Shown here: piece by piece, positions 1-19,432 of the stretch
Layout: each line of letters begins with the position of its first letter
How positions within the stretch are numbered: position 1 is the first letter of the stretch
Virus record (IMG/VR): IMGVR_UViG_3300030390_001111
Coordinates: 450-64,449 of that record
DNA: 64,000 bases
From: a virus
Direction: 5' to 3' (one strand)
Notes under the pieces: model-generated
Seen by the model: only the letters and a program-made list of their open reading frames with translations
The model's database searches: none
Told to the model about the DNA's origin: nothing
Position numbers and translations under genes: made by a program

Positions 1-284
1 AAACTTAACCAACCACCACCGCTGTTTGCTCTGTGTAAACTAAAACATTCGGTTTCTAATAAATGTATTGCTTCTGCATGTATTTCTTTCCAGGGTATAT
101 TAATATCTGGAATTGGTATCCATGGAACATGAGAATTATCTAATATATCATCTTCATCTTCCGGTATAATTTGTTGTGCATCTGCACTTGCAGGATTAGT
201 ATCCATAAGTTCATTAGCATAAAACCAATCTTTAGATTCTTGATCTATTTCTTCCCAATATGCAAGACGTTTATAATCTATCAT
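1..284 (-). CDS. Hypothetical protein, 3' end outside window
   Basis: An open frame starts at an ATG that directly follows the TAA stop of the upstream gene (TAAATG) and stays open to the window edge, giving at least 94 residues. It starts MIDYKRLAYWEE and has an acidic stretch (PEDEDDILD) near residue 45. No family is recognised. As the last visible gene of the radical SAM island it is probably co-transcribed with the two large paralogues upstream. Confidence 0.7.
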   Translation of the reverse strand, partial: MIDYKRLAYWEEIDQESKDWFYANELMDTNPASADAQQIIPEDEDDILDNSHVPWIPIPDINIPWKEIHAEAIHLLETECFSLHRANSGGGWLS

Positions 285-1763
285 TTATATTACTCCTGGC
301 AGCAGCCTCATATTTTGATACTCGTAATACTCGCCGCCTGGAGTATCACCTGAAAAATATATGGTTTTGTTATTTTGCAATAACTTGTTGAATAGATCAA
401 CAAATGCCACTTGGGCATCAAATGCAGGAGAGTTTATGTAATTAATCTCATACTGCCAAATATTACTTAACTGTAATAACGCTATGTGGTCTTTTCCCAC
501 TAGTTCAGCTAATCGTTTCCATTCTTTTACTACATCAATCTTAATAAACTGGTGATCAAGTGTTCTAATAAAATCCCAATGTTCTAACCAATCTTCTTCT
601 GATTCATAACTATCAATAAAATCTAATGCATTTTCTTCATCGTAGTTAATAAACTCTTTGCTTGGCAATCCTAAGTCTGTAATAATATGAAAGTTATCGT
701 TGTAGAATTTTGGAAAATCTATACCGTTCCAGTTTTTTAATACATACTCTTGCCAACCAATTCCAAATGGACTAAAGTCTGTCCACAATATACGTTTAAT
801 AGTATCTCTGTTATTACTAACATGTTTGTATTGGTGTAGCCCACTGCAAGGAACTACAAGTGTGTCTATACCTAATGGATCACCTAATGGAACATCTTCT
901 GTATTTGTAACATACATAATATGAGTATCCATTACTTTGTATTGAAATAGTTCACGTTTGTCTTCGCTTACTTCGTTGTATCCAAAACTGCGACTCTCAG
1001 CAAGGCTTAGCCTTGTGTTAAAATTGTAGTCAAAGAACCAACTTTTTGTAAACTCTAAATCATCTTCGACATAACAGCAAATCTTATGATTTCGTATGTT
1101 GTAATCTAAATTATGTATAGTTAGCCCATTTAAAAATGCTAAAGGAAATAATGTATTAAGAAAGTCATTAGTATAATCTGTTGGCTTTGTTTTATATTCT
1201 TCTTTGCCGTGTGTTAACGCATCTTTGCTTGCTACCCATGTAGGAGTATAATCATCATGCATATGATCCAATGACGCTTTATAGTCTGGGTATATTTCTA
1301 ATTGATTATCATCATTTGTAAACCCATCAAACGTTCTTAGTAATGGGCTAAATTCTTCTAAATTAATAATAACACATTGCTCATGCCACACAGGGCCGTC
1401 TTCATTTCTATTTAAAATATGTCCTGCTGCTAACCAATCTGTATTGTTCCATTTATTGTCTATTGCATCTATTAGTTCATCATCAAATTCACTTGCACCA
1501 GGCCAACAACCATCAAACCAAATTACAGCATGTTTAAATCCAAGACTAGTTACGTGATTAATTGCGTTACCAAAAAATCCATGTCGCCATTTATCTGCAT
1601 GTAGATATGGATATCTAGTGCTATTATTAATATTAATTTGCATTAGTTTTTTTAGTTTACCTGCATATTCATCTTCATTTTTTAATGCAGGATGTAATAC
1701 CTCATTAAAGAATAAATGAACTAGTTTTTTATCAGTAACATGTTCTGTTAAATTTAAATGCAT
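285..1763 (-). CDS. Large protein of unknown family, paralogue of the next upstream gene (492 aa)
   Basis: I do not recognise a family. The protein is soluble-looking, rich in W, Y and D, with no signal peptide or membrane segment. It shares order and local motifs with its upstream neighbour: an N-terminal block (AVIWFDGCWPGASEF here, ACVWFEGIWPDTEEF there) and a C-terminal block (LKNWNGIDFPKF here, IKYWNGEDFPAW there), so the two arose by duplication. It overlaps the upstream stop by one base (TAATG), so the two are translationally coupled. It sits directly downstream of two radical SAM genes, which suggests a role in the same pathway; that is inference. The repeated [IV]WF[DE]G.WP motif may mark a functional core. 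Confidence 0.85.
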   Translation of the reverse strand: MHLNLTEHVTDKKLVHLFFNEVLHPALKNEDEYAGKLKKLMQININNSTRYPYLHADKWRHGFFGNAINHVTSLGFKHAVIWFDGCWPGASEFDDELIDAIDNKWNNTDWLAAGHILNRNEDGPVWHEQCVIINLEEFSPLLRTFDGFTNDDNQLEIYPDYKASLDHMHDDYTPTWVASKDALTHGKEEYKTKPTDYTNDFLNTLFPLAFLNGLTIHNLDYNIRNHKICCYVEDDLEFTKSWFFDYNFNTRLSLAESRSFGYNEVSEDKRELFQYKVMDTHIMYVTNTEDVPLGDPLGIDTLVVPCSGLHQYKHVSNNRDTIKRILWTDFSPFGIGWQEYVLKNWNGIDFPKFYNDNFHIITDLGLPSKEFINYDEENALDFIDSYESEEDWLEHWDFIRTLDHQFIKIDVVKEWKRLAELVGKDHIALLQLSNIWQYEINYINSPAFDAQVAFVDLFNKLLQNNKTIYFSGDTPGGEYYEYQNMRLLPGVI

Positions 1764-3223
1764 TACTCTAATCCTATTCCTCTATTATCAGTCGCACTTA
1801 GCACAACATTTGCTGGACACATTAAATCATTGTCATTAATATCGGTTCCACTGAACCAACTGTGTTCGTGTGTGCTACATACTTTTTCTATCATTTCCAT
1901 AAAACTTTTTTCTAATGCAAACGGCTTTGCCATTAGTTTAGGTGTAATATAACTATAGATGTTGCTACTCCAAAATAGTGTTTTACAATTATTCATTGCA
2001 TCAAACATCTCATTATGATTATAAATTAAGTCTGTATTAAAATATTGATGTTCGCATTGTTTTACTTTGTTCCAAAACTCTAACCAATTTGCTGGACCAT
2101 CAAAGTAGTCTATTACTCTTGACCAACGTTCATGTGCCATATCACGTAGTCTATCATTACAACCTGGATGTGCATGAATCCACTTATCTACCCATGCTGG
2201 AAAGTCTTCACCGTTCCAATATTTAATAGTATCACGTTTAAATTGAACACTATCAGCATCAAAGTCAAACCATACGAAACGTGTGTTCTTAGTCATACCA
2301 TACTTGTAAGCATAGTATAGAAGCTTAAATCCTGCTGTGCAGCCTACATATTGGTCAAACTTAGTATCTAGTGCTTGTTGAGAAATACTTGGGCTACTAG
2401 GCTCTGTATTAACAAAGTAAACTGGACTACTGTCTCCATTATGTATTCTACCTACTAGTCTTTCTCCTTGATTAGAGAAACCACTGTTATCATGTTTTTG
2501 ACCCATTATTCCTTTTTCAAATTCTACTGGTGACAAATGTATTCTAGGTTGCATTATGTTTTCCATAAGTGTATCTGATAATCCCCACACTGTAAGATTT
2601 TGAATAAAACTCCATTGCACCCATTGAGCACCAAAATTATGTTGATACATAAATTGTCCTTGTTTAGGAGGCTCGTCACTGAATTGCCAATCTGGATGAA
2701 CGTTAAGTCTATATTCGCTATCTTCATAATTTGATTGAGAATCATGATTAATCCAATTTGGGTGAGAAGATGCTTCATAGTATGGACTTAGGCTTTTGTG
2801 TGCAATCCATTGCGGTATGTTTACAATTAACATTGTTCTTGCAAAGTAAGGATATATGTCATCATGTAATTGTAGTTGTCCACCAATAATCCAATTTGGA
2901 TCTTCTTTATTATAGCGATCAATTTCATCTAGTAAAAGTAAATTAAATTCTTCTGTGTCTGGCCATATACCTTCAAACCATACGCATGCATATTTGTATC
3001 CTAACTTATTCATTGCTGTTAGCCAAGTTGCATCATATTGATTGTATACATTAACAATACCACCACGTAGATGATTATTACATTCTACATCTTGTATAAT
3101 GCCTAGTTTTTGTTTTAGTATAGGTGTATCGTTGAGCTCTTTGTCCAATGGTAGAAAAGCATGCACAATAGGCCATGCATGATCTGTGTGACTATATTCC
3201 CAACTTTGTTGACCTTGTTTCAT
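1763..3223 (-). CDS. Large protein of unknown family, paralogue of the downstream gene (486 aa)
   Basis: This is the second member of the unknown paralogous pair. It carries the same ordered blocks (ACVWFEGIWPDTEEF around residue 75 and IKYWNGEDFPAW around residue 335). A VWFDFDADS stretch just before the second block resembles an acidic metal-binding loop, but this is weak evidence. Its ATG follows directly on the TAA of the small upstream gene. No signal peptide or transmembrane segment is seen. Its place at the end of a radical SAM/amidinotransferase operon suggests a large enzyme or carrier acting with those genes; function unknown. Confidence 0.85.
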   Translation of the reverse strand: MKQGQQSWEYSHTDHAWPIVHAFLPLDKELNDTPILKQKLGIIQDVECNNHLRGGIVNVYNQYDATWLTAMNKLGYKYACVWFEGIWPDTEEFNLLLLDEIDRYNKEDPNWIIGGQLQLHDDIYPYFARTMLIVNIPQWIAHKSLSPYYEASSHPNWINHDSQSNYEDSEYRLNVHPDWQFSDEPPKQGQFMYQHNFGAQWVQWSFIQNLTVWGLSDTLMENIMQPRIHLSPVEFEKGIMGQKHDNSGFSNQGERLVGRIHNGDSSPVYFVNTEPSSPSISQQALDTKFDQYVGCTAGFKLLYYAYKYGMTKNTRFVWFDFDADSVQFKRDTIKYWNGEDFPAWVDKWIHAHPGCNDRLRDMAHERWSRVIDYFDGPANWLEFWNKVKQCEHQYFNTDLIYNHNEMFDAMNNCKTLFWSSNIYSYITPKLMAKPFALEKSFMEMIEKVCSTHEHSWFSGTDINDNDLMCPANVVLSATDNRGIGLE

Positions 3224-3397
3224 TTATATTTTCTTCCAGTGATGTGTGTCTTGTTCAGTTGGCAGTTGCCCTATATATTCTTCGCCTGTTTCCATATCTG
3301 TTAGTTTCCATTTACCTGGACATTTAGTTACTACTTTTAATTTTATTGCCATATCAAATGTAGGCACAGATGTGCCATCTTTTAATTTTCGATCCAT
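3224..3397 (-). CDS. Small protein, 57 aa, unknown
   Basis: A short frame starts at ATG 3397, overlaps the end of the radical SAM gene upstream by 16 bases and ends TAA immediately before the ATG of the 486-aa gene. The product starts MDRKLKDGTSVPTFDM, has one cysteine, and ends in a His/Lys-rich tail (THHWKKI). The continuous coupling with both neighbours supports translation. It could be a small beta-strand domain protein or, more speculatively, a peptide acted on by the adjacent radical SAM enzymes. It has no recognisable leader/core layout. Confidence 0.6.
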   Translation of the reverse strand: MDRKLKDGTSVPTFDMAIKLKVVTKCPGKWKLTDMETGEEYIGQLPTEQDTHHWKKI

Positions 3398-4629
3398 TTA
3401 CTTTGTCTTTCATTTTCTTCTGCTACTACGTCCATACCTTCTAATGGCATATCTATATAATTTCTAACCATTTGCTTTAGGTTAATATCTTGTTTATATC
3501 GTTCTTCAATGTCTCTTGTATATTTCCGCATGCGAGCATATATCATATAATCACTTTTATTGTTTTCCATGTATGTTGCAAACCTATTCATCTCAGGATG
3601 TTCTTTTTCATGTGCCCTTAGCTTTTTAATAATAGAATCTCTATAATCACCTTGCCAAATTGCCGGAGACAAATACTTAGGTGTTTGTAATATGTTGGCC
3701 GTAATAAACTTTAGGTCAACTGGGCTGTCTTTCCAAAACTGATAAAACTCTGGCATCTGATATATGTTGTGTGCTTGCACTGTAATACCCGCAGCAACAT
3801 CAATTCCAGGTTCGTCGTTTAGCGCCATCATGTTAGCGTAAACTGTATCCCAATTGCCGTCTTGTCTAATGTAGTTGTATACATCTCCAACACCGTCCAT
3901 GCTTACTTTTATATTTACGTGTTTAAATTCATTCCATATTTTAATCAAGTCATATTTCTTAAATTTAATATAACTCAAGTTACTCGCATATCTTAATTTA
4001 ATTTTACTTTTAAGATGATCTGGAATACCTGCTAACAAGTCATAATGTTCTTTGTTAATAATAGGCTCACCACCTGTGAACTGTAGTGTATGAACTGTCT
4101 CCCACATATCAGGCCATTCATTTAAACTTGCAAATAAATCTGTAGGTCTTAATAATCTTGTTTCGTATCCATCTGCTTGATATTTTTTAAGTATATCTAA
4201 ATCTGCTACACGCTTATAAGAACTGTGTGTGCTACACATAATACACTTTAGGTTACAGAAGTTGCTTACTTTAAGTTCTACCCAGTAAGGCGCATTGTTG
4301 ACGCTGTAATCGTCGTTTACGCTTATCTTATCAGCAAATGTATTCCAGTTATCTTTTTCCCATTGTTGACGATTACTTACAATGCCACTATCCTCGTTGT
4401 GCCAGCACACATTACAGCGTTCTGGTCTTTCATCCTTTGCCAAAGCACGTCTCAACTCTTTATAATTTTCGTTATTCCAGCTTTCAAGAGCTGTCTCACC
4501 TGGATTATTCAATGGGGTTTCTTGTGCTTCGCAACATGGGACCATGTCGCCACCAGCACTACCATAGATGTGCATATACGGTAACATACAAAATGTTTTA
4601 CTATTTTTTAAATTGTCTTTGTTAATCAT
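3382..4629 (-). CDS. Radical SAM protein with N-terminal SPASM-like cysteine module (415 aa)
   Basis: The radical SAM cluster motif CxxxCxxC is C125-C129-C132, followed by a GGEPI-type SAM-binding motif (TGGEPI). Before the core lie C14, the pair C32-C33 and C72/C75 in a CMLPYMHI...MVPCCEAQ...RCNVCWHNE layout. This looks like a SPASM/twitch auxiliary Fe-S module placed at the N-terminus instead of the usual C-terminus. Such enzymes cleave SAM to a 5'-deoxyadenosyl radical; the substrate here is unknown. The gene overlaps the upstream radical SAM gene by one base (TAATG), so the two may act in sequence or as a pair. Confidence 0.9.
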   Translation of the reverse strand: MINKDNLKNSKTFCMLPYMHIYGSAGGDMVPCCEAQETPLNNPGETALESWNNENYKELRRALAKDERPERCNVCWHNEDSGIVSNRQQWEKDNWNTFADKISVNDDYSVNNAPYWVELKVSNFCNLKCIMCSTHSSYKRVADLDILKKYQADGYETRLLRPTDLFASLNEWPDMWETVHTLQFTGGEPIINKEHYDLLAGIPDHLKSKIKLRYASNLSYIKFKKYDLIKIWNEFKHVNIKVSMDGVGDVYNYIRQDGNWDTVYANMMALNDEPGIDVAAGITVQAHNIYQMPEFYQFWKDSPVDLKFITANILQTPKYLSPAIWQGDYRDSIIKKLRAHEKEHPEMNRFATYMENNKSDYMIYARMRKYTRDIEERYKQDINLKQMVRNYIDMPLEGMDVVAEENERQSKWIEN

Positions 4630-5840
4630 TAGTAAGGTATATACTCAATTCTATCTTTATACTCTGCCTCGCACAAAGTTTTTAATCTACGTATACATGG
4701 TTCATTAAAATCAAACCCACGTATTTTCCATATGTGTTTTAGTCCTGCAATATAAGCCGCACTAAAATCTTCTGCATCATTAGGCTTGCACATATCTTCT
4801 ACCAGCTTCTTCATTTTGTTAACACGATTAGGATTAATAACTGTTTCATTATATTGGTAGCGGAATGCATCAAGTAGCTTTTGTTTAAACCAGTCTGGCC
4901 AATGTGTTATACTTAGGTTGTGTGGTTCATATACTGTCTGTAGTATAACATTATTTACTTTCTTTACACTACGAGCCCAAACAACAAAGTCAAATAGATA
5001 TAGTATATTCATAACACTAATTGTGCATGCTATATTAACCTTGACTTTTCTTGGGTATTGCTCTTTGAATGCCAACCATTTGTCAAGTGTATCTTCTGTC
5101 TTTTCCCACTTGCTAGGATAACGTATCATGTCATTAAGTTTTCCATATGCATCAATACTCATGCTAAGTGTAAGTTCTTTAAACTGGAACAATGCATCAT
5201 ATTCTGCTTTCTTTGGCCAAAATGTGCAATTGCTAAAAATTTCCATATGTATCTGTGGAGCCAATCCTGCGTCTGCAAGTCTTAAAACAAACTTCATAAA
5301 CTGTGGATGTAAGAATGGTTCACCACCTGTAACTTTCATATGCTTTAGATGTTTTAATGCATCTAAGTCAATTGAATCAAAGTCTACAACAGATGGATCC
5401 TTTTTAAGTTTATTAATAAAGTCAATTGCTGCCTGTGAGTTCTTATTAAACTTTAAATAATCTTTATCCCAATTATGACTATACTCTGGTCCACATGTTT
5501 GACATGTTAAATTACATAATCTGCCAACTGTAATTTCTAAATACTCTAAACGCACCTCATCAGTAAAGTCGGTAAAAAACTCATCTGCTTCTGTTCTCAT
5601 ACTGCTACCTTTTGTTTCTTCATCTGCTTTACATTTGTAACAACCAGGATGCCATTCATTACGCATCATAGCTTCACGCACATCTTTAAACATATCCTTA
5701 TATGAGTTGACGTGAGCCATGTCATCTTCAGATAAGAAACGCTTGTGAAATCTACAACATGGTGTCGTAGGAGTCGCATGCATGATCATACCTGCTTTAA
5801 AAGGATACGCACATGCATTTTTAGGTAGTCTGTTGGACAA
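4629..5840 (-). CDS. Radical SAM protein with N-terminal SPASM-like cysteine module (403 aa)
   Basis: The core cluster is C109-C113-C116 (GRLCNLTCQTC) with a TGGEPF motif about 60 residues later. The auxiliary module precedes it: C10 (NACAYPF), C28-C29 (TTPCCRF) and C67/C70 (GCYKCKADEE). It is one of six proteins here with this order. The start overlaps the 155-aa gene upstream by 20 bases. The EVRLEYLEITVGRLC strand before the core is shared with the paralogues. Substrate unknown; acts in the cytoplasm. Confidence 0.9.
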   Translation of the reverse strand: MSNRLPKNACAYPFKAGMIMHATPTTPCCRFHKRFLSEDDMAHVNSYKDMFKDVREAMMRNEWHPGCYKCKADEETKGSSMRTEADEFFTDFTDEVRLEYLEITVGRLCNLTCQTCGPEYSHNWDKDYLKFNKNSQAAIDFINKLKKDPSVVDFDSIDLDALKHLKHMKVTGGEPFLHPQFMKFVLRLADAGLAPQIHMEIFSNCTFWPKKAEYDALFQFKELTLSMSIDAYGKLNDMIRYPSKWEKTEDTLDKWLAFKEQYPRKVKVNIACTISVMNILYLFDFVVWARSVKKVNNVILQTVYEPHNLSITHWPDWFKQKLLDAFRYQYNETVINPNRVNKMKKLVEDMCKPNDAEDFSAAYIAGLKHIWKIRGFDFNEPCIRRLKTLCEAEYKDRIEYIPY

Positions 5841-6288
5841 CTTCGTCTCCTATTTGAATGGCATACCATTTGCCATTTTTTTCAATTGCAAAGTCACCAT
5901 TTATACTACCCAGTTTAACTGATTGTATTGATAATGTGCTATTAACTTGAACACCGGTTTTCATATTACCAGACATTATAGGTGGAGTTTTTTTACTATT
6001 TGGAACGCCATCGCCTAGTCCAATTCTAAACTCAGGTCCATTAGCTGTTTTCATACCTTGCCACTTTGTTAAAATAGTTGGGTGGTCATTTAGTTTTGTA
6101 TATTGATAACTCTGAGTTACACTTACTCCTATTTCATTTTGTTCAATTTCACTTACTGTATCTATTACATTCTGCCATATAATATCTTCACAATTTTCTT
6201 GTCCAATATTATCAAATATATAATCGATCCTGACTGGAAAATCATCTTTAGCATTACTAGTAATATTAATAGGTGATGTGAAGTTCAT
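5821..6288 (-). CDS. Hypothetical protein, 155 aa
   Basis: ATG 6288 was chosen because it overlaps the stop of the aminotransferase-like gene by one base (TAATG), the commonest junction in this genome. The protein has no cysteine motif, signal peptide or membrane segment that I recognise. It has beta-rich stretches (KWYAIQIGDEVV at the C-terminus). It lies between the aminotransferase-like gene and two radical SAM genes, so it is probably an accessory factor of that pathway. Confidence 0.75.
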   Translation of the reverse strand: MNFTSPINITSNAKDDFPVRIDYIFDNIGQENCEDIIWQNVIDTVSEIEQNEIGVSVTQSYQYTKLNDHPTILTKWQGMKTANGPEFRIGLGDGVPNSKKTPPIMSGNMKTGVQVNSTLSIQSVKLGSINGDFAIEKNGKWYAIQIGDEVVQQTT

Positions 6289-7283
6289 TATAACCAAGTG
6301 CCTTTTTGTTTATAGTTTTTAATTGCATGTCTAATGTTTACTCTATTATACACACCATCTTTTTTAAATCGTTTCCATTGCTCAGCCTCTGGTGCTTGTG
6401 CAATATGTATTGTGTTACTTGGAATAAGTCCATAATGTTCGCATAGCTCTGCATGTTCTTTCATATACTTCTTAGGCATAGTGTCAGGGCTAAAGTTTTT
6501 CATAAGTGTATTTGCAATACATATGTTTAAATGGATACCATGTTTCCATTCTGTTTGCACTGCTAATGCACCTTCGTTGATCTTACTGAATACAATACCT
6601 GCACGCCAGTTGCCACAGCTAAGACCTTTTGTAGTGCTGAACGCAACCATCTTAATACAATCTCTATCCAAGTTAATCTCAATTCCATGACAGGTTCCAA
6701 ACCATGCCATGTCAACAAATACTGGAATATCATTTGCATCACAGAAGTCTAGGGTTTCTTCCATTTTATCATGTTTGGTTCCAGTGCCACTAAATGGCAA
6801 ACTAATAAGTAATGCATCGCCTTTGCTTAATGGAGTGTCATCTACATAACGTTCCCATGTCCAATCGTCACCACCAACATTAAGTATAGCATCTCTGTTG
6901 TATGGATATTCTCCACGGAACATACGGAACTCATAGCCATTTGCTAAACACCAGTAATGCCACCAGTCCATTCCTTGTGTAGTTCCTAAACTTACAAACC
7001 TATTTGGAAATGTTCGTAAGCCTTCTATTTTGTTTAGTTCACTGCTTTCAATCCAATCTGGATATATGTCTAAGTATTCATCACATTCATTTTGCATATT
7101 AAATATATCTGGATCATGAAATACATGTTCAACTACATAATCATAAAATGGCATGTTCCAAATGCTGTTACCATTTGTTTCAAAAATCTCAGTTAGCTTT
7201 TTTGCTTCTTCTACACTAAGATGATCAAACGGACTATAATGCGGTGTCATCTCAGTTCTGCTTGTTACTTTTTCATTCTTCAT
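6288..7283 (-). CDS. PLP-dependent aminotransferase-like protein, fold type I, short (331 aa)
   Basis: The PLP site is readable: D191 in PVFVDMAW (cofactor ring-nitrogen Asp), K219 in AFSTTKGLS (Schiff-base Lys) and R227 in NWRAGI (phosphate-binding Arg), spaced as in class I/II aminotransferases. The protein is about 60 residues shorter than usual (~390) and the C-terminal domain is reduced, so substrate recognition has probably changed. It could be an aminotransferase, decarboxylase or lyase. Beside amidinotransferases it could supply the amine that is later amidinated; this is inference. Confidence 0.8.
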   Translation of the reverse strand: MKNEKVTSRTEMTPHYSPFDHLSVEEAKKLTEIFETNGNSIWNMPFYDYVVEHVFHDPDIFNMQNECDEYLDIYPDWIESSELNKIEGLRTFPNRFVSLGTTQGMDWWHYWCLANGYEFRMFRGEYPYNRDAILNVGGDDWTWERYVDDTPLSKGDALLISLPFSGTGTKHDKMEETLDFCDANDIPVFVDMAWFGTCHGIEINLDRDCIKMVAFSTTKGLSCGNWRAGIVFSKINEGALAVQTEWKHGIHLNICIANTLMKNFSPDTMPKKYMKEHAELCEHYGLIPSNTIHIAQAPEAEQWKRFKKDGVYNRVNIRHAIKNYKQKGTWL

Positions 7284-10712: not shown

Positions 10713-10724
10713 CACATAAACATA

Positions 10725-10742: not shown

Positions 10743-10759
10743 AACCTGCATTAATACAA

Positions 10760-10788: not shown

Positions 10789-10815
10789 TGTTGTAACTCA
10801 AGGAGAATTAAAACA

Positions 10816-11652
10816 ATGACACGAATTGCACTTGACAAAGATCATGCAACAGAAATGACTGTGCATGAATTTGACGCTACTAATATAGATATTATAGCAC
10901 ACTCTGACGAATTATACAAGTCTTTTGAGAGTGGCTGGCCTGTAGTAATTAAGAATTTAGTTATTCCTGGTGTAGACTATAATTATTATGATGAGTTAGA
11001 CGATTGGGTTATTAAAGATAACAAATGGATTATGCCTTGGTATAATTCGCACATCAAAAAAAGAGAACGATTAAGGACGGAAAGAGGTTGGACTGAAGAA
11101 CAAATTGATGTGTTTCACAAAAAACATAAACAAGCAAACAACGGTTGGAACGAAATATTTGACAAACTGTTTCCACGTTACAACACACCAGAACGTATGC
11201 TTAGTCATAGATACAATATGCTTGTTGAAAATAAACTACACATAGATGAGTTAGATGAGCAACACACAGGTAATGAACAACAGATACGTATGTTTGTTAA
11301 CTTGGATAAAAAGCGTCCACGAGTGTTAACGTTTGGCCCAGACTTAGAACAAATGTGGTATAAGTATAAAGACAAATTTAATTTAGAAGAATTAGATAAA
11401 ACTAACATACATACATTTATTAGTGAGATGCGTAATAGATGTGTATGGAATGATAAAATGTGGGATCAGTTTCATCACCCATTACACTACATTACATTTG
11501 ATCCAGGTGATGTATGGTTTTTCAATGCACAATGGATTACACATCAAATTGTATTTGGTGCTAAGTTACAATGCTTTGAAGCAGACATTACAAATGAGAG
11601 TCTGCTCCATCCAGAATTATGTATGACTGAGAGGGTAAAAAACCTTGAGTGA
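10816..11652 (+). CDS. Putative 2OG/Fe(II)-type oxygenase or cupin protein (278 aa)
   Basis: The C-terminal half reads as a double-stranded beta-helix: LHIDELD (H142, D144) and ITHQIVFG (H243) fit an HxD...H iron site, and HYITFDPGDVWFF is a typical cupin strand. No clear C-terminal 2OG-binding Arg was placed, so the cosubstrate is uncertain. The gene has a consensus promoter and an AAGGAG site, and overlaps the next oxygenase by 8 bases. Divergent from the amidinotransferase operon, it probably supplies an oxidative step to that pathway. Confidence 0.65.
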   Translation: MTRIALDKDHATEMTVHEFDATNIDIIAHSDELYKSFESGWPVVIKNLVIPGVDYNYYDELDDWVIKDNKWIMPWYNSHIKKRERLRTERGWTEEQIDVFHKKHKQANNGWNEIFDKLFPRYNTPERMLSHRYNMLVENKLHIDELDEQHTGNEQQIRMFVNLDKKRPRVLTFGPDLEQMWYKYKDKFNLEELDKTNIHTFISEMRNRCVWNDKMWDQFHHPLHYITFDPGDVWFFNAQWITHQIVFGAKLQCFEADITNESLLHPELCMTERVKNLE

Positions 11653-12664
11653 TATTCAACACACAATAATTGATGGCTATCTACCACAGGCATTTTTTAA
11701 AAAGTATAGCAAAGAATATCCTATTGAGTGGATTAAAGAATACTGTAGCAATCCAGAAGTAAGCGAACATGAAAGTAGTTTGTATGGAAACTATAGTGCC
11801 GGACTTGAACACTATGATTTAGAATTTTTAGAATGGGTTGAAAATCAATTACCGGCTATTAAGTTAGATGCGGTTGGACGTGATGTTAAACATGACCATT
11901 TTTATACTAATTTTCATTATGATGAAAGAGGCAGTTGGCTAGAACCACACAATGATTTAAAAGATATGCGTTGGTTAGTTACTAGCCAAATTTATATGAA
12001 TAATAATCAAGGTGCAAGACTATTAGATAGGCAGTTAGAAGTTACAAAACAAATACCATGTCACCCTAATTTATTTTACAGTATTGTTGCTGACCCTTGG
12101 AGTTGGCATGATGTTCCTGAAGTATCCAAGCACAAACAAAGTATATTATTTCGTGTGGGTAAACGTAGAAGCAATAGTATTGCACATCCAGATTCTGATA
12201 ATGATACTGCTTATGTTATATATAATAACTTTCACAAAGACAAACACTATGCTAAACTAGGTCCTAGATTAGGTAATATAACAGAAGCATGGTTACATAA
12301 TTTAGGTGCTAAAAACATAATGCATAGCTTTTGGCGTAGTGAGGATAGCTTAAAAAAGGTGGTTAAAAAGGGCTTAGAGCGCCATACAAGCGTGGTTATT
12401 GTATTAAGTGGGTATTTGCCGTCTTCGTTAAAGATCACCGCTAATACGGCGTTACAGACGGTTACAAACAAAGATTTTGAGCTAAATTTAAACCCAGATG
12501 TAGAAGTTGAGGAGTATTTTCGTCTTACTGATGAGAATATGAATGACTATGCAGACTGCGTATTTTCCAATTTAAGCGGAGATCATCCGTTAGTTGAAGC
12601 TGAGCAAGTAATGTATAGTTACTACGCTAATAAGCTACATTTAAACTATATAGACCTCTTTTAG
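11645..12664 (+). CDS. 2OG/Fe(II) oxygenase with extra C-terminal domain (339 aa)
   Basis: The first ~175 residues are a prolyl-4-hydroxylase-like oxygenase: H102 and D104 in EPHNDL, H155 in SWHDV, and R170 in ILFRVG for 2OG binding. Residues ~180-339 form a second region of unknown function. The start is a TTG overlapping the upstream stop (TTGAGTGA) with GAGAGGG 9 nt before it, showing that this genome uses TTG starts. The stop lies inside the hairpin that ends the transcription unit. Confidence 0.82.
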   Translation: MSDIQHTIIDGYLPQAFFKKYSKEYPIEWIKEYCSNPEVSEHESSLYGNYSAGLEHYDLEFLEWVENQLPAIKLDAVGRDVKHDHFYTNFHYDERGSWLEPHNDLKDMRWLVTSQIYMNNNQGARLLDRQLEVTKQIPCHPNLFYSIVADPWSWHDVPEVSKHKQSILFRVGKRRSNSIAHPDSDNDTAYVIYNNFHKDKHYAKLGPRLGNITEAWLHNLGAKNIMHSFWRSEDSLKKVVKKGLERHTSVVIVLSGYLPSSLKITANTALQTVTNKDFELNLNPDVEVEEYFRLTDENMNDYADCVFSNLSGDHPLVEAEQVMYSYYANKLHLNYIDLF

Positions 12665-12671: not shown

Positions 12672-12678
12672 TAGACGC

Positions 12679-13941
12679 TCAAATACCGTCTTGTATGCGT
12701 CGAAACTCAGGTGCTACACTCATTATATCATGTCCACGATGTTTGTCGTAGTTTTGTGTTATAGACACAAATTGCCCCATTTTTTCTTTACTATATTTGT
12801 GATCTGGATCTTTTCCAAAGTTCACTAGTTCCATTAATGGTTCTTCATAGTCTTCGTAATGTGGACTATTATGTATTGATTTTAAAAACTCTAATACTTG
12901 TTTTTCTTGTTCTTTCTTTAACCATTCAGGAGCATGTGCCATACTGTAGTATGCTGGTTCCACTAATTGATTAGTTGACATACCAATACCTCTGTTTACT
13001 GTGCATTGGTAATCATGCATAAACTTCCAAAAAGGAACAATATGTAAAGCATTATGTATTTGATTAACTGTAGTTACTCTTACTTTAATACGCTTGCCTT
13101 GTTTTGTATCTGCAAACTTAACTAACTTATCAAAGTTTTTCCAAACTGAATCCCACTTGGAGGGTGGGCGTAAATAATCATTCATTGGTCCCATACCTTC
13201 AAGTGAGCAGTTTACAATCACTTTTTCAAACTTCCCTAATTGTTCTAGCCAACGATCTTGCATGTTAGTGATGTTGGTATAGAAACTAAGTTCGATGTGA
13301 TCGGCGTGTCCGGATTCTACTGCGAGATCTAACAAAGTAAACATATCCTTTGCAACCGTTGGTTCCCCGCCTATAAGTTTTATTTTACGAGCTTTACCTA
13401 TCATGTCCTTAAAGCTCGCCCAGTCTATTCCAGGCTGAAGAAGAGCCTGCTTCTTGTCTGCAATATTGGAATGCCAATCGGGATGGTCCGCTCCGAGTCC
13501 TTTTTGCACCATGTGTGCTCGCTCAACACTTACTAAATGTGAAGCTTCTTTATTGCACATTTGACATTGTAGATTACACAAATTGCCAAGCCTGAAATCA
13601 AATTGTAAAGGCTGTTCAACCTCCCAATCATTAACGGAAGCGTCAGCAACCACTTCGTCAATTACGTCTTCCCAAACTTCGTTTTCCCATTGCCTAGAAC
13701 TAACAATATTGTTCTTTTCTAAATGTAAACATTCTCTACATTCAGGCAACCATTCACCTTTGGTCATACGTTTACGAACATCTTTAATGTAATCGTGATT
13801 CCATGTTCCGTCGATGCCTAGTTTTTCTTGGTCAACTTTTTCTTTGGGTTCTTTGGCCATGCAACATAACCTATAGCGTCCACCATTATAGGTGCTATAT
13901 TGAACAAAAGGTAATGCACAAAAGCCGTTATCTGTTTTCAT
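12679..13941 (-). CDS. Radical SAM protein with N-terminal SPASM-like cysteine module (420 aa)
   Basis: Core cluster C122-C126-C129 (GNLCNLQCQMC) with IGGEPT. The N-terminal module has C8 (FCALPF), C26-C27 (RLCCMAK) and C68/C71 (CRECLHLE). The SSRQWE segment after the module is shared with the 415- and 476-aa paralogues. It overlaps the upstream 2OG oxygenase by 4 bases (ATGA), which suggests the oxygenase and radical SAM steps are linked. Its codon usage looks slightly more GC-rich than its neighbours around 13.1-13.5 kb. Confidence 0.9.
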   Translation of the reverse strand: MKTDNGFCALPFVQYSTYNGGRYRLCCMAKEPKEKVDQEKLGIDGTWNHDYIKDVRKRMTKGEWLPECRECLHLEKNNIVSSRQWENEVWEDVIDEVVADASVNDWEVEQPLQFDFRLGNLCNLQCQMCNKEASHLVSVERAHMVQKGLGADHPDWHSNIADKKQALLQPGIDWASFKDMIGKARKIKLIGGEPTVAKDMFTLLDLAVESGHADHIELSFYTNITNMQDRWLEQLGKFEKVIVNCSLEGMGPMNDYLRPPSKWDSVWKNFDKLVKFADTKQGKRIKVRVTTVNQIHNALHIVPFWKFMHDYQCTVNRGIGMSTNQLVEPAYYSMAHAPEWLKKEQEKQVLEFLKSIHNSPHYEDYEEPLMELVNFGKDPDHKYSKEKMGQFVSITQNYDKHRGHDIMSVAPEFRRIQDGI

Positions 13942-14534
13942 CTGTATCTCGTTAGTAAACTTTTTCTTACCCGATCGCCTTGCTCGGTATAATGGTAATC
14001 AGCATCTGCGTTGCTCCCATATACAAGAAAAGAATTTTTTATTAGTGGTAGTTCTTTGCTTTCTAAAATATCATAGCAGTTATCATTATTTTCATTATAG
14101 CTATTTTTATCTACCTTGCAAAGTATTGTTCCATGTTTTTTATAATCTATATCAGGCATGTATATATGCCATTGTATTACTTCTTTACCATTTGCATCAG
14201 TATGCAAATGTATATAATGTTCTGGATCATCCCATAGATAATCCGTGCCAATTCTACTTATATCATTCCATGATCTAGTGGCTGTCAATTTAGTTTTTAT
14301 TGTATCATATAATTGTTTAGATGTTTCTATAAATTCTCTAAATGGTTTCCATTCTAGATCAGCACTAAGACTGTGATCACCAGTCCTACATTCAAACTGT
14401 TGAGCATGAAAATCTTTTACTAACTCAAAATAGTGATTGTCACTTAAAAAATTTTCAATCCATAAATGCTCGTATGGACTAGTAAGCAATTCTGCAGAGT
14501 CTATTTTATCTATGATATAATTAAATTCCTGCAT
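13938..14534 (-). CDS. 2OG/Fe(II) oxygenase-like protein (198 aa)
   Basis: H111 and D113 (HLHTDANG), H181 (DYHYTEQG) and an Arg near residue 190 (DRVRKSLLTRYR) form the HxD...H...R set of small 2OG oxygenases. QWHIYMPD is the strand after the HxD, and the length suits a minimal beta-helix oxygenase. It is coupled on both sides: TAATG-type overlap with the nucleosidase upstream and ATGA with the radical SAM gene downstream. Confidence 0.75.
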   Translation of the reverse strand: MQEFNYIIDKIDSAELLTSPYEHLWIENFLSDNHYFELVKDFHAQQFECRTGDHSLSADLEWKPFREFIETSKQLYDTIKTKLTATRSWNDISRIGTDYLWDDPEHYIHLHTDANGKEVIQWHIYMPDIDYKKHGTILCKVDKNSYNENNDNCYDILESKELPLIKNSFLVYGSNADADYHYTEQGDRVRKSLLTRYR

Positions 14535-15082
14535 TAAACTGTTTTAAGTAAATCTAAAAATAGTTCTGCACCTTTGGCTTGATTCTCTTCCCAAGTCTTT
14601 GGTGCATCTTCGTCTGCCATATCACTAGCATACTTAATTAGTGTAGTTGGTTTGCTAAACATTTTACCAACTTTGGCAATTGCATAACCTTCCATGTCAA
14701 CTAAATGACTTCTTAGTTCTGGTGGTTCTTTTACAAAATTATCACCTGAACTTAAGATTACTTTACTGTCTGGGTTAAGTGTTATGTCGCCTGCAATTTC
14801 TGTAGTTTCAAATGGTGTCATGCCTAATGGTGCTTGTGGTCTTGCATCCATGTCACGTTGTCTTACTGCACCTACTTCTAGTAACTTGCCTTCAAGCTCT
14901 GGTTCTAATGTGCCTGCTGTTCCAAAATTAATAATTCTCTCACAATCAGGTTGATTAACGGCCAGCATTGCTGATACAGTTGCATTAATTTTACCTACGC
15001 CTGTATACCATACTTTAAATTTTTCAGGGTCAAGTCTATTCTCTGGCAGTTCGCCTTTGAGTGCTACTAATACGTATATCAT
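14534..15082 (-). CDS. MTA/SAH nucleosidase-like protein, short form (182 aa)
   Basis: Matches the 5'-methylthioadenosine/S-adenosylhomocysteine nucleosidase family: GVGKINA, INFGTAGTL, E11, E131 in VDMEGYA and D154 in YASDMAD. The E131-D154 spacing of 23 equals that of E. coli MTAN (E174, D197), so the active site looks intact although the protein is ~50 residues shorter. Known MTANs hydrolyse MTA, SAH and 5'-deoxyadenosine, the last being the product that inhibits radical SAM enzymes. Its place inside a radical SAM operon fits that role. Salvage of SAH from methylation is an alternative. Confidence 0.9.
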   Translation of the reverse strand: MIYVLVALKGELPENRLDPEKFKVWYTGVGKINATVSAMLAVNQPDCERIINFGTAGTLEPELEGKLLEVGAVRQRDMDARPQAPLGMTPFETTEIAGDITLNPDSKVILSSGDNFVKEPPELRSHLVDMEGYAIAKVGKMFSKPTTLIKYASDMADEDAPKTWEENQAKGAELFLDLLKTV

Positions 15083-15083
15083 T

Positions 15084-16280
15084 TTAATCTCCTTCTACCA
15101 TATAATTAAAATATGGATATTGTTCTAAAAATTTAATTGGTCTAAAACTATCAAGATAATCTACAAAAGCAAGAAATTCTCTATTATGTTTGCCCATAGA
15201 AAACTTAGTGTTTCTAATGCTATTTATAAAGTTCATATTGTTGCCACATTTATCCCAACCTTCTAATACCAATTTACATTTTTGTATTTCTTCTTCAATT
15301 ATATCAGGTTTAATTCTACCTATATGAAGATAATCTTTCTCTCTTTGGCCTTTGTAGACTAGACTTGGATTAATTTGTATATCATGCTGTTTAGCAAAAG
15401 CATACAATTTATGTAGTCCTACAAAATTCATAATATGTAAACAAGGATTGAGTTCAACCATACAGTTATCTTCTGCATTTAGTTCAGCATATTTTATAAC
15501 ATTTCTTTCTAATACAGACCATTTGTTTGGGTATCTTGCATATTCTACTATTTCCTCTACTCCATCTAAACTTATCTGCATTGATAGTTCTCTAAAACTT
15601 TTTAGCATTTCTAACCATTTTGATCTAAATACAGTGCCATTGGTTAATATACGAAGTCTAATATTTTTACTGTAATTATTTTCAGTCAACCATTCAAGTA
15701 TATTAGTAACCTGTGGCATAAGCAAAGGTTCGCCTCCTGCTAATAATATCTCTTTAACATTAGCTATGTTTGATTTCATAAACTCATAGTAACTATCTTC
15801 TTCTTTTAGACCACAAGGTTGATTTAATCCTGTTGTTACTTTAAATTTTTTTGTGTATGTTTCTACTCTTGAACTAATTGCTGAACTGTTTTCTGGATTA
15901 CACATAACACATTCTAGATTACAATAATTGCTTGGTCTTAGATCCCAATAGATTGGATTATCAACAATTACTTTTTTGTTATTGTAATAATAATCAGTTT
16001 CTTTGCTAAATTCTGCGTTGTGGTATTGTCGTTTACTTTCAATGCCTGCCTTTTCATCATCTACGCATATGCTACATTCTTTTGGCATTTGTCTGTTGTT
16101 AAATGATTCTCTGACTTTTTGATATTCAATACTATTCCATAGATCTTTGGCAGTGGAATATCCTTGCTCAAAGCCTCCTTGCCACTCACAACAAGGTCTG
16201 TATTCTCTTTTTAACCCATGCCAGTGTCCATAAATTCCTGTAAATGGTAATACACAAAAATTATTCATCCTTTGGTTCAT
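15084..16280 (-). CDS. Radical SAM protein with N-terminal SPASM-like cysteine module (398 aa)
   Basis: Core cluster C120-C124-C127 (SNYCNLECVMC) with AGGEPL. The N-terminal module has C9 (FCVLPF), C30-C31 (RPCCEWQ) and C69/C72 (ECSICVDDE). ATG 16280 and ATG 16268 are both possible; the second gives an 8-base overlap with the upstream stop, more like the other junctions. It lies between the nucleosidase and another radical SAM gene. Substrate unknown. Confidence 0.9.
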   Translation of the reverse strand: MNQRMNNFCVLPFTGIYGHWHGLKREYRPCCEWQGGFEQGYSTAKDLWNSIEYQKVRESFNNRQMPKECSICVDDEKAGIESKRQYHNAEFSKETDYYYNNKKVIVDNPIYWDLRPSNYCNLECVMCNPENSSAISSRVETYTKKFKVTTGLNQPCGLKEEDSYYEFMKSNIANVKEILLAGGEPLLMPQVTNILEWLTENNYSKNIRLRILTNGTVFRSKWLEMLKSFRELSMQISLDGVEEIVEYARYPNKWSVLERNVIKYAELNAEDNCMVELNPCLHIMNFVGLHKLYAFAKQHDIQINPSLVYKGQREKDYLHIGRIKPDIIEEEIQKCKLVLEGWDKCGNNMNFINSIRNTKFSMGKHNREFLAFVDYLDSFRPIKFLEQYPYFNYMVEGD

Positions 16281-17691
16281 CTAACAGGTATGCCATTTCT
16301 GGGAATGTTTTACGAAAGTCTGTTCCACGCATTCCATCTAACTTAGTTAAATATTCTCTAAATTCAGGTAAACGTTGGCTCCAGTCTTCACTACGTGCAA
16401 AACTAATCATACCACGTAAACGTTTAATTCCATAGCTTGCATCTAACCATTGTTGTTTTGTTACTTTACCCTTGTGCCAACTTGGAACACCTAGTTCCCA
16501 ATTCTCACTCCACCATTCAATGAATTCTTCATACTTGGCTTCTGTTTTATCTAAGAACTCGTCTGGTAACACTTTGACATTTAAGTGTCCTGGCCAGTAT
16601 ACAAAGTGATAGTTAATACCACCTGCACCAAATGGCCACATATTTGTTTTATGTAATCCACTTTCTGTTAGTTTCCATTTAAGGAAATCTGGAATATAAT
16701 GAATGTTAAGAGCGTTAACGGCACATGCAATTGTAACTTCTACATTGTTAGTTGTTTCAGTATCTAAACGTTTAAACATTGCAAGTTGATGATCCCATTG
16801 ACTTGGATATCTAATATAATCATTCATAGCACCAATGCTATCAATACTATAATGGAATCTTACTTTCTTATAATGTGACCATAACTCTAATAGTCTATCT
16901 GGTAGTTCAATTCCATTTGAATTATAACGAACTTCTATATCTGCAGCATAGCCCATTTCAATAACTTTTTCTAAGATCTGGTAATGTTCTTCAATAACTG
17001 TAGACTCACCGCCTGCAAAATATAGCTGACGCATGTATGGAATTTGTGCATAAAATTGATCCCAAAACTCTGGATTGTCTTTGTGCCAATTATAACTAGC
17101 ACCAAATTCTTTTCCTTTGTTTTCCCAAACCATAGTTCCTTTAAGGCTTTCGTTTGTAATTTGTGGATACAGTTTATTCCAATCTTTTATCCACCCTGAA
17201 CTATCATGTGGGCTACACATAACGCACCCCAACTGGCATTTCGTCCCCATACGGATATCAATATACCGTAATTTACTATCAGTGCTTCCATCTTCGTATG
17301 TTTCCTTTACAAGCTCGTCAACATTAATACCGTTGTTCATCCAGTATTGCGTTTCCCATTGACGTTTTGATCTGTGCCCTGCGGCTTCTTCTTTAAAACA
17401 TTTTAAACAACTTGCTGGCTTTTCACCTTTAAGCATCATTTGTCTTACACTTCGCATGTATGTATTATTCCATGCTGTATTTAAATCTGTTGTATTTAAG
17501 TTAGCTGGTTTGCCATCTTCTGTTTTAACAATACCTACTCTTCCACCATGCACTTTATCGTTTGTAGCACCTACACTACTAGCATTAGCTGTGCAGCATA
17601 CTCGCATACTGCCGTCTGGTCTTGTTGAAAGGTGAATCCAAGGTAGTATACAAAATGTTTCTGATGGAGTTGGTAAGTCGTGTTCGCTCAT
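16261..17691 (-). CDS. Radical SAM protein with N-terminal SPASM-like cysteine module, longest form (476 aa)
   Basis: Core cluster C152-C156-C159 (GTKCQLGCVMC), then AGGEST in place of GGEP. The N-terminal module has C14 (FCILPWIH), C32-C33 (RVCCTAN) and C95/C98 (SCLKCFKEE); the interval between these is about 25 residues longer than in the paralogues. CILPW and RSKRQW are the clearest family signatures. It starts 4 bases after the stop of the second amidinotransferase gene. Confidence 0.9.
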   Translation of the reverse strand: MSEHDLPTPSETFCILPWIHLSTRPDGSMRVCCTANASSVGATNDKVHGGRVGIVKTEDGKPANLNTTDLNTAWNNTYMRSVRQMMLKGEKPASCLKCFKEEAAGHRSKRQWETQYWMNNGINVDELVKETYEDGSTDSKLRYIDIRMGTKCQLGCVMCSPHDSSGWIKDWNKLYPQITNESLKGTMVWENKGKEFGASYNWHKDNPEFWDQFYAQIPYMRQLYFAGGESTVIEEHYQILEKVIEMGYAADIEVRYNSNGIELPDRLLELWSHYKKVRFHYSIDSIGAMNDYIRYPSQWDHQLAMFKRLDTETTNNVEVTIACAVNALNIHYIPDFLKWKLTESGLHKTNMWPFGAGGINYHFVYWPGHLNVKVLPDEFLDKTEAKYEEFIEWWSENWELGVPSWHKGKVTKQQWLDASYGIKRLRGMISFARSEDWSQRLPEFREYLTKLDGMRGTDFRKTFPEMAYLLDEPKDE

Positions 17692-17695
17692 TTGT

Positions 17696-18772
17696 TTATT
17701 TTGTCCTTATTAGATCTTGTGTTAAGCAATGAAGTCCTTGATCAAAGAACCAACGGTTTCGCCAGTCAACACTTATAATCTCATGATCTACTTTTTTAAG
17801 TTCATCACGCATGCTATCACTATCTCCAATTACCATTGATAATTCAGGATTGATAGTAAGGCAATTTACTTCAAAGTATGTTTCTTTGCTATAGCCAAAC
17901 CAGTTACTGAGAGTTTTGTTAATAACTTCTGCAATTTTGTCTGCATTTTCTTGTTTTTCAAATCCCTCAATATGCCATTTGTTATCGCTGTTTGTTTTAA
18001 TACTATTTATTATTTCTTCATGTGGCATGTTGTATCCTGTTAACTGATTACACATATGCCTATATCCATTAGTTCCTGATGGTATAGTTTTCCAACCAGG
18101 AAATGTTTCTTCGTATACTTCATCTGCGTTACGTTCTGTTGTTAGTAACACACCTTCTTTAATACATGCCAAACTTGCATCCACATGTCCTCTTATATCT
18201 GTAGAGGTAAATTTTGAATCAGGAAAGTATGACATTACAGAATCAATAAGTTTAGAACTAAACTCATCTCCAAATACTAAACGATCATTAACTCTTGTAA
18301 CTGCTGGCCAATGCACATAGCCCCAGTCCATTTTTTCTGCATCAATTATCTTATTATCAAATTGATCCATGTCAATAAAAGCAGGTCTGTCGCCATTAGT
18401 AAAAATAATATCTTTATACACCATCATATCATTACGTGGTGCTAACGGAATAGGAATTTTTCCCATAAACACATTAGCCGCAATACTTGTTGTATTAGTG
18501 TCTAAATTTAATTTGAGAGTTTCTGCTTGCTCTAATTGAAATTGTGATAGGACTTCTTGATTGGGCCTAATAACTTCAACGCCAAGGTCTTCTAATTTTT
18601 GTTGAATAACATTTAAGTCATGCCAAGTTTCGTCTGCTAGTTGTTGTGCTATGGGTAGAAAATCTTTGTAAAATCCATGATTAAATATATCTTTTACAAT
18701 TTTGGGATCCATAAATGATCCTAATGCGACACTTTTTAAAGGATCCCAATCATTAACCGCATAACATTTCAT
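17696..18772 (-). CDS. AGAT-like amidinotransferase 2 (358 aa)
   Basis: Paralogue of the 357-aa amidinotransferase. The nucleophile is C349 (QGLHCLTQDL) with H196 (IRGHVDAS); the APRND segment and the N-terminal LKSVALGSF match the family. The two copies differ a lot outside the active site, so they probably act on different amines, or one makes guanidino groups while the other handles a related intermediate. Abuts the sulfotransferase-like gene upstream. Confidence 0.87.
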   Translation of the reverse strand: MKCYAVNDWDPLKSVALGSFMDPKIVKDIFNHGFYKDFLPIAQQLADETWHDLNVIQQKLEDLGVEVIRPNQEVLSQFQLEQAETLKLNLDTNTTSIAANVFMGKIPIPLAPRNDMMVYKDIIFTNGDRPAFIDMDQFDNKIIDAEKMDWGYVHWPAVTRVNDRLVFGDEFSSKLIDSVMSYFPDSKFTSTDIRGHVDASLACIKEGVLLTTERNADEVYEETFPGWKTIPSGTNGYRHMCNQLTGYNMPHEEIINSIKTNSDNKWHIEGFEKQENADKIAEVINKTLSNWFGYSKETYFEVNCLTINPELSMVIGDSDSMRDELKKVDHEIISVDWRNRWFFDQGLHCLTQDLIRTK

Positions 18773-19432
18773 TTATAACTCCGGAATTTTTGCATATGTA
18801 ATATAAATATCATTTGCATTTGCTTCCATGTATTTAGCTTTATTTTGGTTGAACCCTTTTATCTTAGAAAAAGATGTGGGTGGATTATATAGTTCCCATT
18901 GCAATCCTTTACGCATTGCAAAATCACATATCTTTGCATTCTCTTCAAATATAAGTGGACGCATATGATTGTAATCTGTATATGCTGGTCTATAGTCTGG
19001 GTAATGCTCTGGAGTAAAATCCATTACTTCACACCACCATGCAAAACTCTTTTGACTTTCACGATAGCATAGTGCAATGTAATCACCTGCAAAGTGATTC
19101 CATATGTAATCAAGGTTAAAATGTCTTGCAAATTGATGACTTTTTATTACACGTATACCTTCACCTGTAAATATTTCGTCAATATCATCTTGTAGTTCAG
19201 CTGGAGTCATGTAATTAAAATCTATCCAGTTTTCTCCACATCCCATTCCTGGGCCAAAGTAACTACCTGAATGTCCATTAAATAGATCATTAGGATTTAA
19301 TGGTCTATGATAAAATCTACGTTCGTCTGTTTCATCTGAACGATCTGCATCAATGACTTCTCTAAGTCCTGTGTCTACTCCACTCCATTTACTGCCTGGA
19401 ACTCCACAAAACCAGATGTTCTGTTTATTCAT
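18773..19432 (-). CDS. Sulfotransferase-like P-loop protein (219 aa)
   Basis: The N-terminus has a sulfate-donor-loop-like segment (FCGVPGSKWSG, residues 8-17). Later come VIKSHQF, like the KxH segment of PAPS sulfotransferases, and a YRESQKSFAWW helix where the 3'-phosphate motif is expected. The match is fold-level only and catalysis is unproven. A G-rich segment (GSYFGPGMGCGENW) follows. First gene of the operon whose later members are the second amidinotransferase and two radical SAM genes. Confidence 0.5.
   Translation of the reverse strand: MNKQNIWFCGVPGSKWSGVDTGLREVIDADRSDETDERRFYHRPLNPNDLFNGHSGSYFGPGMGCGENWIDFNYMTPAELQDDIDEIFTGEGIRVIKSHQFARHFNLDYIWNHFAGDYIALCYRESQKSFAWWCEVMDFTPEHYPDYRPAYTDYNHMRPLIFEENAKICDFAMRKGLQWELYNPPTSFSKIKGFNQNKAKYMEANANDIYITYAKIPEL

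Follow-up and report, generated by a model that had tools for sequence, protein, structure and literature searches.

Introduction

Clusters of several radical S-adenosylmethionine (rSAM) genes have been described in a number of phages. In the Campylobacter phages CP220 and CPt10, five rSAM genes are clustered with a gene for a putative glycine amidinotransferase; the clusters are interchangeable, and 11–12 rSAM proteins are encoded per genome (PMC2853527). In pelagimyophages, rSAM cassettes occur together with lipopolysaccharide-type glycosyltransferases in a host-recognition island (PMC7029224), and the T4-like environmental viral genome TARA_ERS488813_N000010 contains 12 rSAM genes in addition to paaD and glutaredoxin (PMC5332604). 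The available text of these three reports gives the clusters no product. Here, we describe an rSAM-rich gene island at positions 285–19432 of a 64,000-nucleotide stretch of viral DNA (the window), which comprises bases 450–64449 of the 72,801-base record IMGVR_UViG_3300030390_001111. An initial annotation, made from the sequence alone, had read the island as one biosynthetic pathway and had stated that no such system was known in phages. That statement was wrong in kind: the three reports show that rSAM-rich clusters in phages are a kind known already. Since 2010 they have been reported with no assigned function, and the present analysis narrows the question to a testable set of two to five genes.

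Co-inheritance of the island genes

The island is a dense run of minus-strand genes with two divergent plus-strand genes (Table 1); most of the genes overlap or abut, and the overlapping starts and stops noted initially are confirmed by the coordinates. It is a co-inherited gene unit and not a set of random insertions. A search anchored on the amidinotransferase-fold protein AGAT1 gave 41 viral loci, from which near-duplicates were dropped and loci of at least 20.5 kb were kept; 11 distinct full-length loci with AGAT1 identities of 71–94% form a close group. AGAT1 is present in all 11 by construction, since the search started from it, and the counts are too low for genes close to the edges of the loci. 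Ten genes, TwiR6, the nucleosidase, TwiR4, OG1, AGAT1, TwiR3, PLP, TwiR2, TwiR1 and unkA2, are found in every one of these loci and in the same order, while six others occur in one to ten of them and orthologs of TwiR5 and AGAT2 in none. Two long related records, G001 and G004, were checked for retained genes. Relative to G001, the conserved island genes have ratios of nonsynonymous to synonymous substitution (dN/dS) of 0.06–0.24 where computable and are therefore maintained by purifying selection; this set leaves out MetK, owing to an alignment failure, and Sulf, the dS of which was saturated. For OG3, dS to its one relative is just 0.10, against 0.46–1.27 for the remaining island genes that allowed an estimate, and this gene was therefore recently exchanged. 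TwiR5, AGAT2 and OG3 are recent additions.

The expectation that the genes would co-occur in related phages thus held for the ten-gene core and failed for TwiR5, AGAT2, OG3 and sml158. The presence of ten genes in all 11 loci in a conserved order supports a single pathway, and we are highly confident both of the unit itself and of one pathway for its core, from which the four added members drop out.

The TwiR6–rSAM52 core in distant viruses

In a more distant group of ten full-length loci (AGAT1 identity 46–61%), TwiR6, AGAT1, TwiR3 and a further rSAM gene, rSAM52, are present throughout and PLP in seven. rSAM52 lies ∼35 kb from the island in the window and tens of kb away in G001, G004 and other relatives; in loci L084 and L085 it is within the island and adjoins TwiR6. 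Relatives of TwiR6 are encoded in 596 stretches, among which there may be paralogues, and the TwiR6-anchored sets consist of the 80 top-ranking viral loci, all of which have at least 64% identity, and the top 20 from bacteria. TwiR6 itself is 64–94% identical across 23 sequences. Of the 55 viral loci in which TwiR6 has 5 kb or more of sequence on each side, 46 contain an rSAM52 ortholog, which is within 3 kb in 31 of the 46 and upstream of TwiR6 in 44; several of the viral loci without a nearby copy belong to the group of the window, in which rSAM52 is known to lie further off. All 65 viral loci with an ortholog have the two genes on the same strand, as do nine of 14 bacterial loci. The TwiR6 and rSAM52 distance matrices are correlated (r = 0.74 for 72 pairs, with none of 2000 permutations as high; 0.65 within viruses alone and 0.83 within bacteria alone). 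Part of this correlation comes from whole-genome shared descent, so that on its own it is evidence of co-inheritance rather than of function.

The core is therefore made up of TwiR6 and rSAM52, to which TwiR3, AGAT1 and usually PLP are added in the AGAT1-bearing lineages, and the other tailoring genes vary. Among 50,697 deposited phage records there was no close match to TwiR6 or rSAM52, only partial matches at 22–28% identity, and the DNA of the island matched none of the phage records.

Bacterial counterparts

The pair also recurs in bacteria. Ten of the 12 bacterial TwiR6 loci with 5 kb or more on each flank contain an rSAM52 ortholog, which is within 3 kb in nine. In the TwiR6 tree, twelve Bdellovibrionota-type sequences form a supported clade, with a Planctomycetota sequence beside it, next to the viral sequences. 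Some bacterial contigs that carry TwiR6 are hundreds of kb long, the longest being 936 kb, suggesting that the genes are chromosomal. Three other bacterial loci (Gammaproteobacteria, Acidimicrobiaceae and Chloroflexi) may be viral contigs that were placed in bacterial bins. In bacterial records, 118 proteins encoded close to TwiR6 were surveyed, two of these three doubtful records being included; 46 are rSAM proteins, and members of the glycosyltransferase 2, carbamoyltransferase, QueC-like, TauD and sugar dehydratase families are also present. Each of the eleven bacterial genomes that were tested contains 10–37 matches to the twitch rSAM family NF033640, and up to 25 rSAM matches were found in a single viral contig among our records; these viral and bacterial counts represent a large reservoir of uncharacterized radical chemistry. 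About a dozen twitch rSAM genes lie in one ∼30 kb stretch of a Bdellovibrionota genome (G027:C1:745513-774880).

The viruses that bear the island are most likely to be T4-related tailed phages, an assignment based on a T4-type portal gene in four related records of 192–328 kb and on genes for a DNA polymerase and a clamp loader in G004 that belong to phage families; the fragment covered by the window itself yielded no portal gene. We tentatively suggest that a large group of uncultured T4-type viruses and the Bdellovibrionota, which are predatory bacteria, share a dedicated TwiR6–rSAM52 radical pathway with swappable tailoring, and that its product may be a new class of decoration, sugar-like or other, made by no characterized pathway.

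The rSAM proteins and their associated enzymes

All seven rSAM genes initially claimed for the island are real, with the motif CxxxCxxC once in each, as is also the case for rSAM52 and an rSAM protein at the right end of the record. Six of the seven pass the Pfam Radical_SAM cut-off, TwiR6 falling 0.2 bit short, and six pass the cut-off of 170 bits for NCBIfam NF033640, with scores of 241–419 bits. In these family members the predicted twitch-type auxiliary Fe–S domain is N-terminal and not at its usual C-terminal location; the cysteine pattern C-x(∼18)-CC ... CxxC is present in TwiR1, TwiR2, TwiR4, TwiR5 and TwiR6, and TwiR3 does not have the CC pair.

The two large paralogues of the initial annotation, unkA1 and unkA2, were recovered as such (19% identity, aligned over the length of unkA2). 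The assignment of the pyridoxal phosphate (PLP) enzyme is likewise borne out by its catalytic residues, Lys219 (the Schiff-base lysine), Asp191 (the cofactor aspartate) and Arg227 being invariant in an alignment of 16 sequences. In searches of the PDB, AGAT1 matches HsvA (E = 7e-26), the inosamine-phosphate amidinotransferase StrB1 (1e-19) and SxtG (1e-16), and it retains the nucleophilic Cys341, His220 and Asp222. The aspartate of the FDAA motif is a catalytic residue in arginine amidinotransferases; it is replaced by histidine in all close homologs of AGAT1, and in AGAT2 the motif is lost together with its aspartate. The description of both as AGAT-like amidinotransferases therefore stands for fold and homology and not for this catalytic residue, and to judge from its residues AGAT1 may use a different donor or carry out different chemistry.

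Three 2-oxoglutarate-type oxygenases had been proposed and are likely from their motifs, but none passes a curated cut-off. OG1 matches the Kdo hydroxylase family PF11004 with 17.5 bits, under the cut-off of 25, and a PDB profile search gave no match, so this assignment was rejected and is retained as a hint only; a PDB search with OG2 also gave no match. A nucleosidase for 5′-methylthioadenosine and S-adenosylhomocysteine (MTA/SAH) had been placed elsewhere in the window; the nucleosidase-like gene is located inside the island, its product scoring 100.9 bits against NF004168 (cut-off 129) and 65 bits against NF004079 (cut-off 169). The label of sulfotransferase for Sulf finds no support in Pfam, PHROG or PDB sequence searches, none of which gave a confident match, and the fold search returned only weak matches resembling P-loop nucleotide kinases. 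PDB profile and sequence searches with the PLP, OG2, rSAM52 and unkA families yielded nothing useful. In one relative (L024), sml158 is 79% identical to its counterpart, compared with 52–57% for the flanking PLP and TwiR2, and therefore moves independently of its neighbours.

Table 1. Features of the island and of the remainder of the window. The last column gives the number of the 11 close-group loci with an ortholog.
Gene	Position	Strand	Assignment	Loci
unkA1	285..1763	-	Paralogue of unkA2, with the same architecture predicted from homology; 32–75% identity to relatives; dN/dS 0.13	8
unkA2	1763..3223	-	Predicted GT-A glycosyltransferase-like N-terminal half, Rossmann/methyltransferase-like C-terminal half	11
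TwiR1	3382..4629	-	N-terminal twitch-type rSAM; NF033640 314 bits	11
TwiR2	4629..5840	-	NF033640-family rSAM, 241 bits	11
sml158	5821..6297	-	158-residue open reading frame, mobile insert	3
PLP	6288..7283	-	Fold-type-I aminotransferase-like; Aminotran_1_2 21.6 bits (cut-off 19.7)	11
TwiR3	7280..8530	-	N-terminal twitch rSAM; NF033640 270 bits	11
rSPASM	8523..9644	-	rSAM, C-terminal SPASM-like cysteines; PF04055 40.7 bits	10
AGAT1	9601..10674	-	Amidinotransferase-fold (pentein) protein; PDB matches HsvA, StrB1, SxtG, AGAT	11
OG1	10816..11652	+	2-Oxoglutarate-oxygenase-like; H142-x-D144 and H243 invariant	11
OG2	11645..12664	+	Oxygenase-like by motif H91-x-D93, H155 (invariant in alignment)	6
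TwiR4	12679..13941	-	N-terminal twitch rSAM; NF033640 305 bits	11
OG3	13938..14534	-	Oxygenase-like by motif; recent insertion, sole homolog	1
Nucleosidase	14534..15082	-	MTA/SAH-nucleosidase-like; PF01048 45.9 bits (cut-off 25.1)	11
TwiR5	15084..16280	-	N-terminal twitch rSAM; NF033640 261 bits	0
TwiR6	16261..17691	-	N-terminal twitch rSAM, universal core gene; NF033640 419 bits; dN/dS 0.059	11
AGAT2	17696..18772	-	Divergent AGAT-fold; 28% identical to AGAT1	0
Sulf	18773..19432	-	P-loop-like N-terminus; model pLDDT 79	7
rSAM	24062-24685		Further rSAM gene	
Rubredoxin	about 25549-25689		Support gene	
MetK	29071..30198	-	S-adenosylmethionine synthetase; three S-AdoMet_synt domains	
Formate dehydrogenase	31594-32790		649 bits (cut-off 329)	
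QueE-like	33093-33989		Further rSAM gene	
Subtilase	36673-39498		941-residue subtilase-family protease	
FolE	42248-42946		GTP cyclohydrolase I	
GalE, glycosyltransferase	42961-45089		Two sugar-type genes	
Plastocyanin/azurin, PsiE	49436-49855, 50092-50499		Family members	
SufE	about 50903-51355		Support gene	
MIP18	about 52113-52415		Support gene	
rSAM52	52748..53908	-	rSAM, C-terminal SPASM-like cysteines; core partner of TwiR6 outside the island; dN/dS 0.064	
Repeat protein	60185-62740	-	851 residues, Cys/Tyr-rich repeats	

Possible product and mechanism

Amidination, amination and sulfation had been taken as hints to the product. The case for amidination and sulfation is weak: neither AGAT1 nor AGAT2 has the catalytic aspartate, and no match to a sulfotransferase turned up. 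Our leading reading, which we place ahead of all its rivals and regard as a real possibility though short of probable, is that the island makes an unusual amino- or guanidino-sugar-like group that decorates the envelope of the infected cell or the virion. TwiR6 and rSAM52 would open the pathway with invariant radical reactions on a shared precursor. The oxygenases, the remaining twitch rSAM enzymes, the AGAT-fold protein and the PLP enzyme would then remodel it; possible reactions include the transfer of amino groups, oxidation at C–H bonds or epimerization, and the transfer or loss of a group resembling guanidine. The PLP enzyme would fit transamination of an α-amino or keto compound. Enzymes of the rSAM type cleave S-adenosylmethionine and release 5′-deoxyadenosine, which members of the MTA/SAH-nucleosidase family can clear, and the island nucleosidase may do so here. 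The glycosyltransferase-like unkA1 and unkA2 would attach the finished unit. The decoration might serve host recognition or the exclusion of other phages, the tailoring genes being swapped as decorations diverge.

Several observations point to a sugar-type product. The strongest pointer to a glycosylation step within the island is the predicted GT-A-like half of unkA2, for which the AlphaFold2 model (pLDDT 80, pTM 0.68) gave Foldseek matches to majastridin (probability 1.00), the PBCV-1 capsid glycosyltransferase (0.96) and NNMT (0.99), all with low TM-scores. GalE and a glycosyltransferase are retained in both long relatives, and genes for a NodU-like carbamoyltransferase and a sugar-nucleotidyltransferase-like protein are clustered with another rSAM gene at the right end of the record. 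The nearest characterized relatives of AGAT1 include inosamine-phosphate amidinotransferase. Finally, rSAM genes sit with glycosyltransferase-type genes in CP220, in the pelagimyophage island and in cyanophage S-SCSM2R, in which rSAM, amidinotransferase and glycosyltransferase genes occur together.

Other observations weigh against a sugar-like decoration. The TM-scores of the unkA2 fold matches are just 0.16–0.4, and AGAT1 is without the aspartate expected of an arginine amidinotransferase. A Pfam census of the 102 non-rSAM neighbours of AGAT-free viral loci contained no glycosyltransferase families, and few named families at all; no tail-fibre gene was identified in the window, in which no search was aimed at tail fibres. 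A substrate or product has been established for none of the twitch rSAM enzymes, the order of the proposed steps is conjecture and all of the steps are inferred.

The best-surviving alternative, which we nevertheless consider unlikely, is nucleic acid hypermodification, in which a bulky group would be placed on phage DNA or RNA for escape from nucleases. Phages do make elaborate bases, FolE and a QueE-like protein are encoded in the window and in both long relatives, and QueC-like domains occur near related islands. However, a TGT/DpdA-type base-exchange gene is present in none of 12 island-bearing records, which are possibly incomplete, and no QueC passes its cut-off there, for which reason 7-deazaguanine DNA modification was rejected as the product. 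Family scans of the window recognized neither a DNA-modifying transferase nor a dedicated hydroxymethylase, and the retention of the TwiR6–rSAM52 pair in Bdellovibrionota genomes also speaks against a role of this kind.

Less likely still is that the rSAM enzymes act on a peptide or a virion protein, as in the maturation of ribosomally synthesized and post-translationally modified peptides. Peptides are frequent substrates of SPASM/twitch rSAM enzymes (PMC11002830), the only solved structure matched by the TwiR6 profile is the peptide maturase SkfB, and the secreted-looking Cys/Tyr-repeat protein is a possible target. The overlapping genes of the island leave no space for a small precursor gene, however, which excludes a precursor within the operon; sml158, the only small open reading frame, is too sporadic among the close relatives (three of 11), and the PLP, AGAT-fold and glycosyltransferase-like genes fit small-molecule chemistry better. 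We give a similarly low rating to a free, diffusible guanidino or amino compound that would act on the host cell or on competitors. The set of tailoring enzymes is self-contained and the AGAT-fold relatives HsvA, StrB1 and SxtG belong to natural-product pathways, but assembly-line, export and self-protection genes were not recognized in the island, and the TctA and TctC proteins outside it look like uptake proteins. It is very improbable that the genes are unlinked auxiliary functions that share a hotspot but no pathway. In favour of this reading, TwiR5, AGAT2, OG3 and sml158 are lineage-specific or recent, and other phages swap such cassettes (PMC2853527). However, the ten-gene set and its order are still intact at an AGAT1 identity of 71%, and the core is found again in distant viruses and in bacteria, so that this explanation is largely refuted for the core and holds for the four added genes only.

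Support genes and other features of the window

The MetK, SufE, MIP18, rubredoxin and formate dehydrogenase genes that had been named as support for the island are all present in the window. As a conserved support set they fared unevenly: MetK is found in both G001 and G004 and rubredoxin in one of them, whereas SufE, MIP18 and formate dehydrogenase are in neither and were rejected as obligatory support. MetK is a possible supply of S-adenosylmethionine for the island that is conserved in the lineage.

At the right end of the record (L004 8645-12800) are genes for a NodU-like carbamoyltransferase, an rSAM protein, a short glycerophosphodiesterase-like protein, a sugar-nucleotidyltransferase-like protein and a HAD-like protein, the last cut by the end of the contig. 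The TctC/TctA-like transporters of the same region (L004 3887-4960 and 4977-6440) were named by resemblance and matched no family model; they share 98% and 100% identity with their G001 counterparts, compared with 59–87% for their neighbours, and are likely to have been exchanged very recently or to be unusually constrained. The 851-residue repeat protein has a signal-peptide-like start and many ∼22-residue Cys/Tyr-rich repeats (QQC...LYDSGC.GY..AY); it matches nothing in the phage records and is 42–63% identical to proteins of related viral contigs. The plastocyanin/azurin-family and PsiE-family genes are beside two tRNA-Arg genes and SufE, and were not found in the two long relatives. The subtilase-family protease has 41–76% identity to its counterparts in relatives.

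Comparison with known systems

The island resembles the CP220/CPt10 clusters in combining several rSAM genes with one amidinotransferase gene and in varying between phages, and in CP220 the cluster is followed by genes with the nucleotide-diphospho-sugar-transferase fold. It differs in that the Campylobacter phage amidinotransferase is 27.9% identical to AGAT1 and the rSAM proteins 24% identical to ours; gene-level orthology was not found, and the CP220 region contained no TwiR6 or rSAM52 ortholog. Pelagibacter phage Mosig similarly has rSAM-type, carbamoyltransferase, aminotransferase and oxygenase genes near its tail-fibre genes. The pelagimyophage island lies between VrlC and gp14 together with tail fibres, whereas our material consists of contig fragments in which those genes were not searched for, and the gene-level similarity to the window is only 21–32%. 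TARA_ERS488813_N000010 shares the many rSAM and Fe–S accessory genes in a T4-like virus, a likeness by description only, but that report reads them as Fe–S metabolism and not as a shared biosynthetic island. Six island proteins are members of NF033640, which is a family name without a reaction; the present results give it a fixed partner in rSAM52 as well as a genetic context. Measured against the open-licence literature, in which a description in a subscription journal could be missed, what is new is that the core is fixed, that its gene order is maintained over many viruses, that it has a counterpart in bacteria and that passengers are told apart from members.

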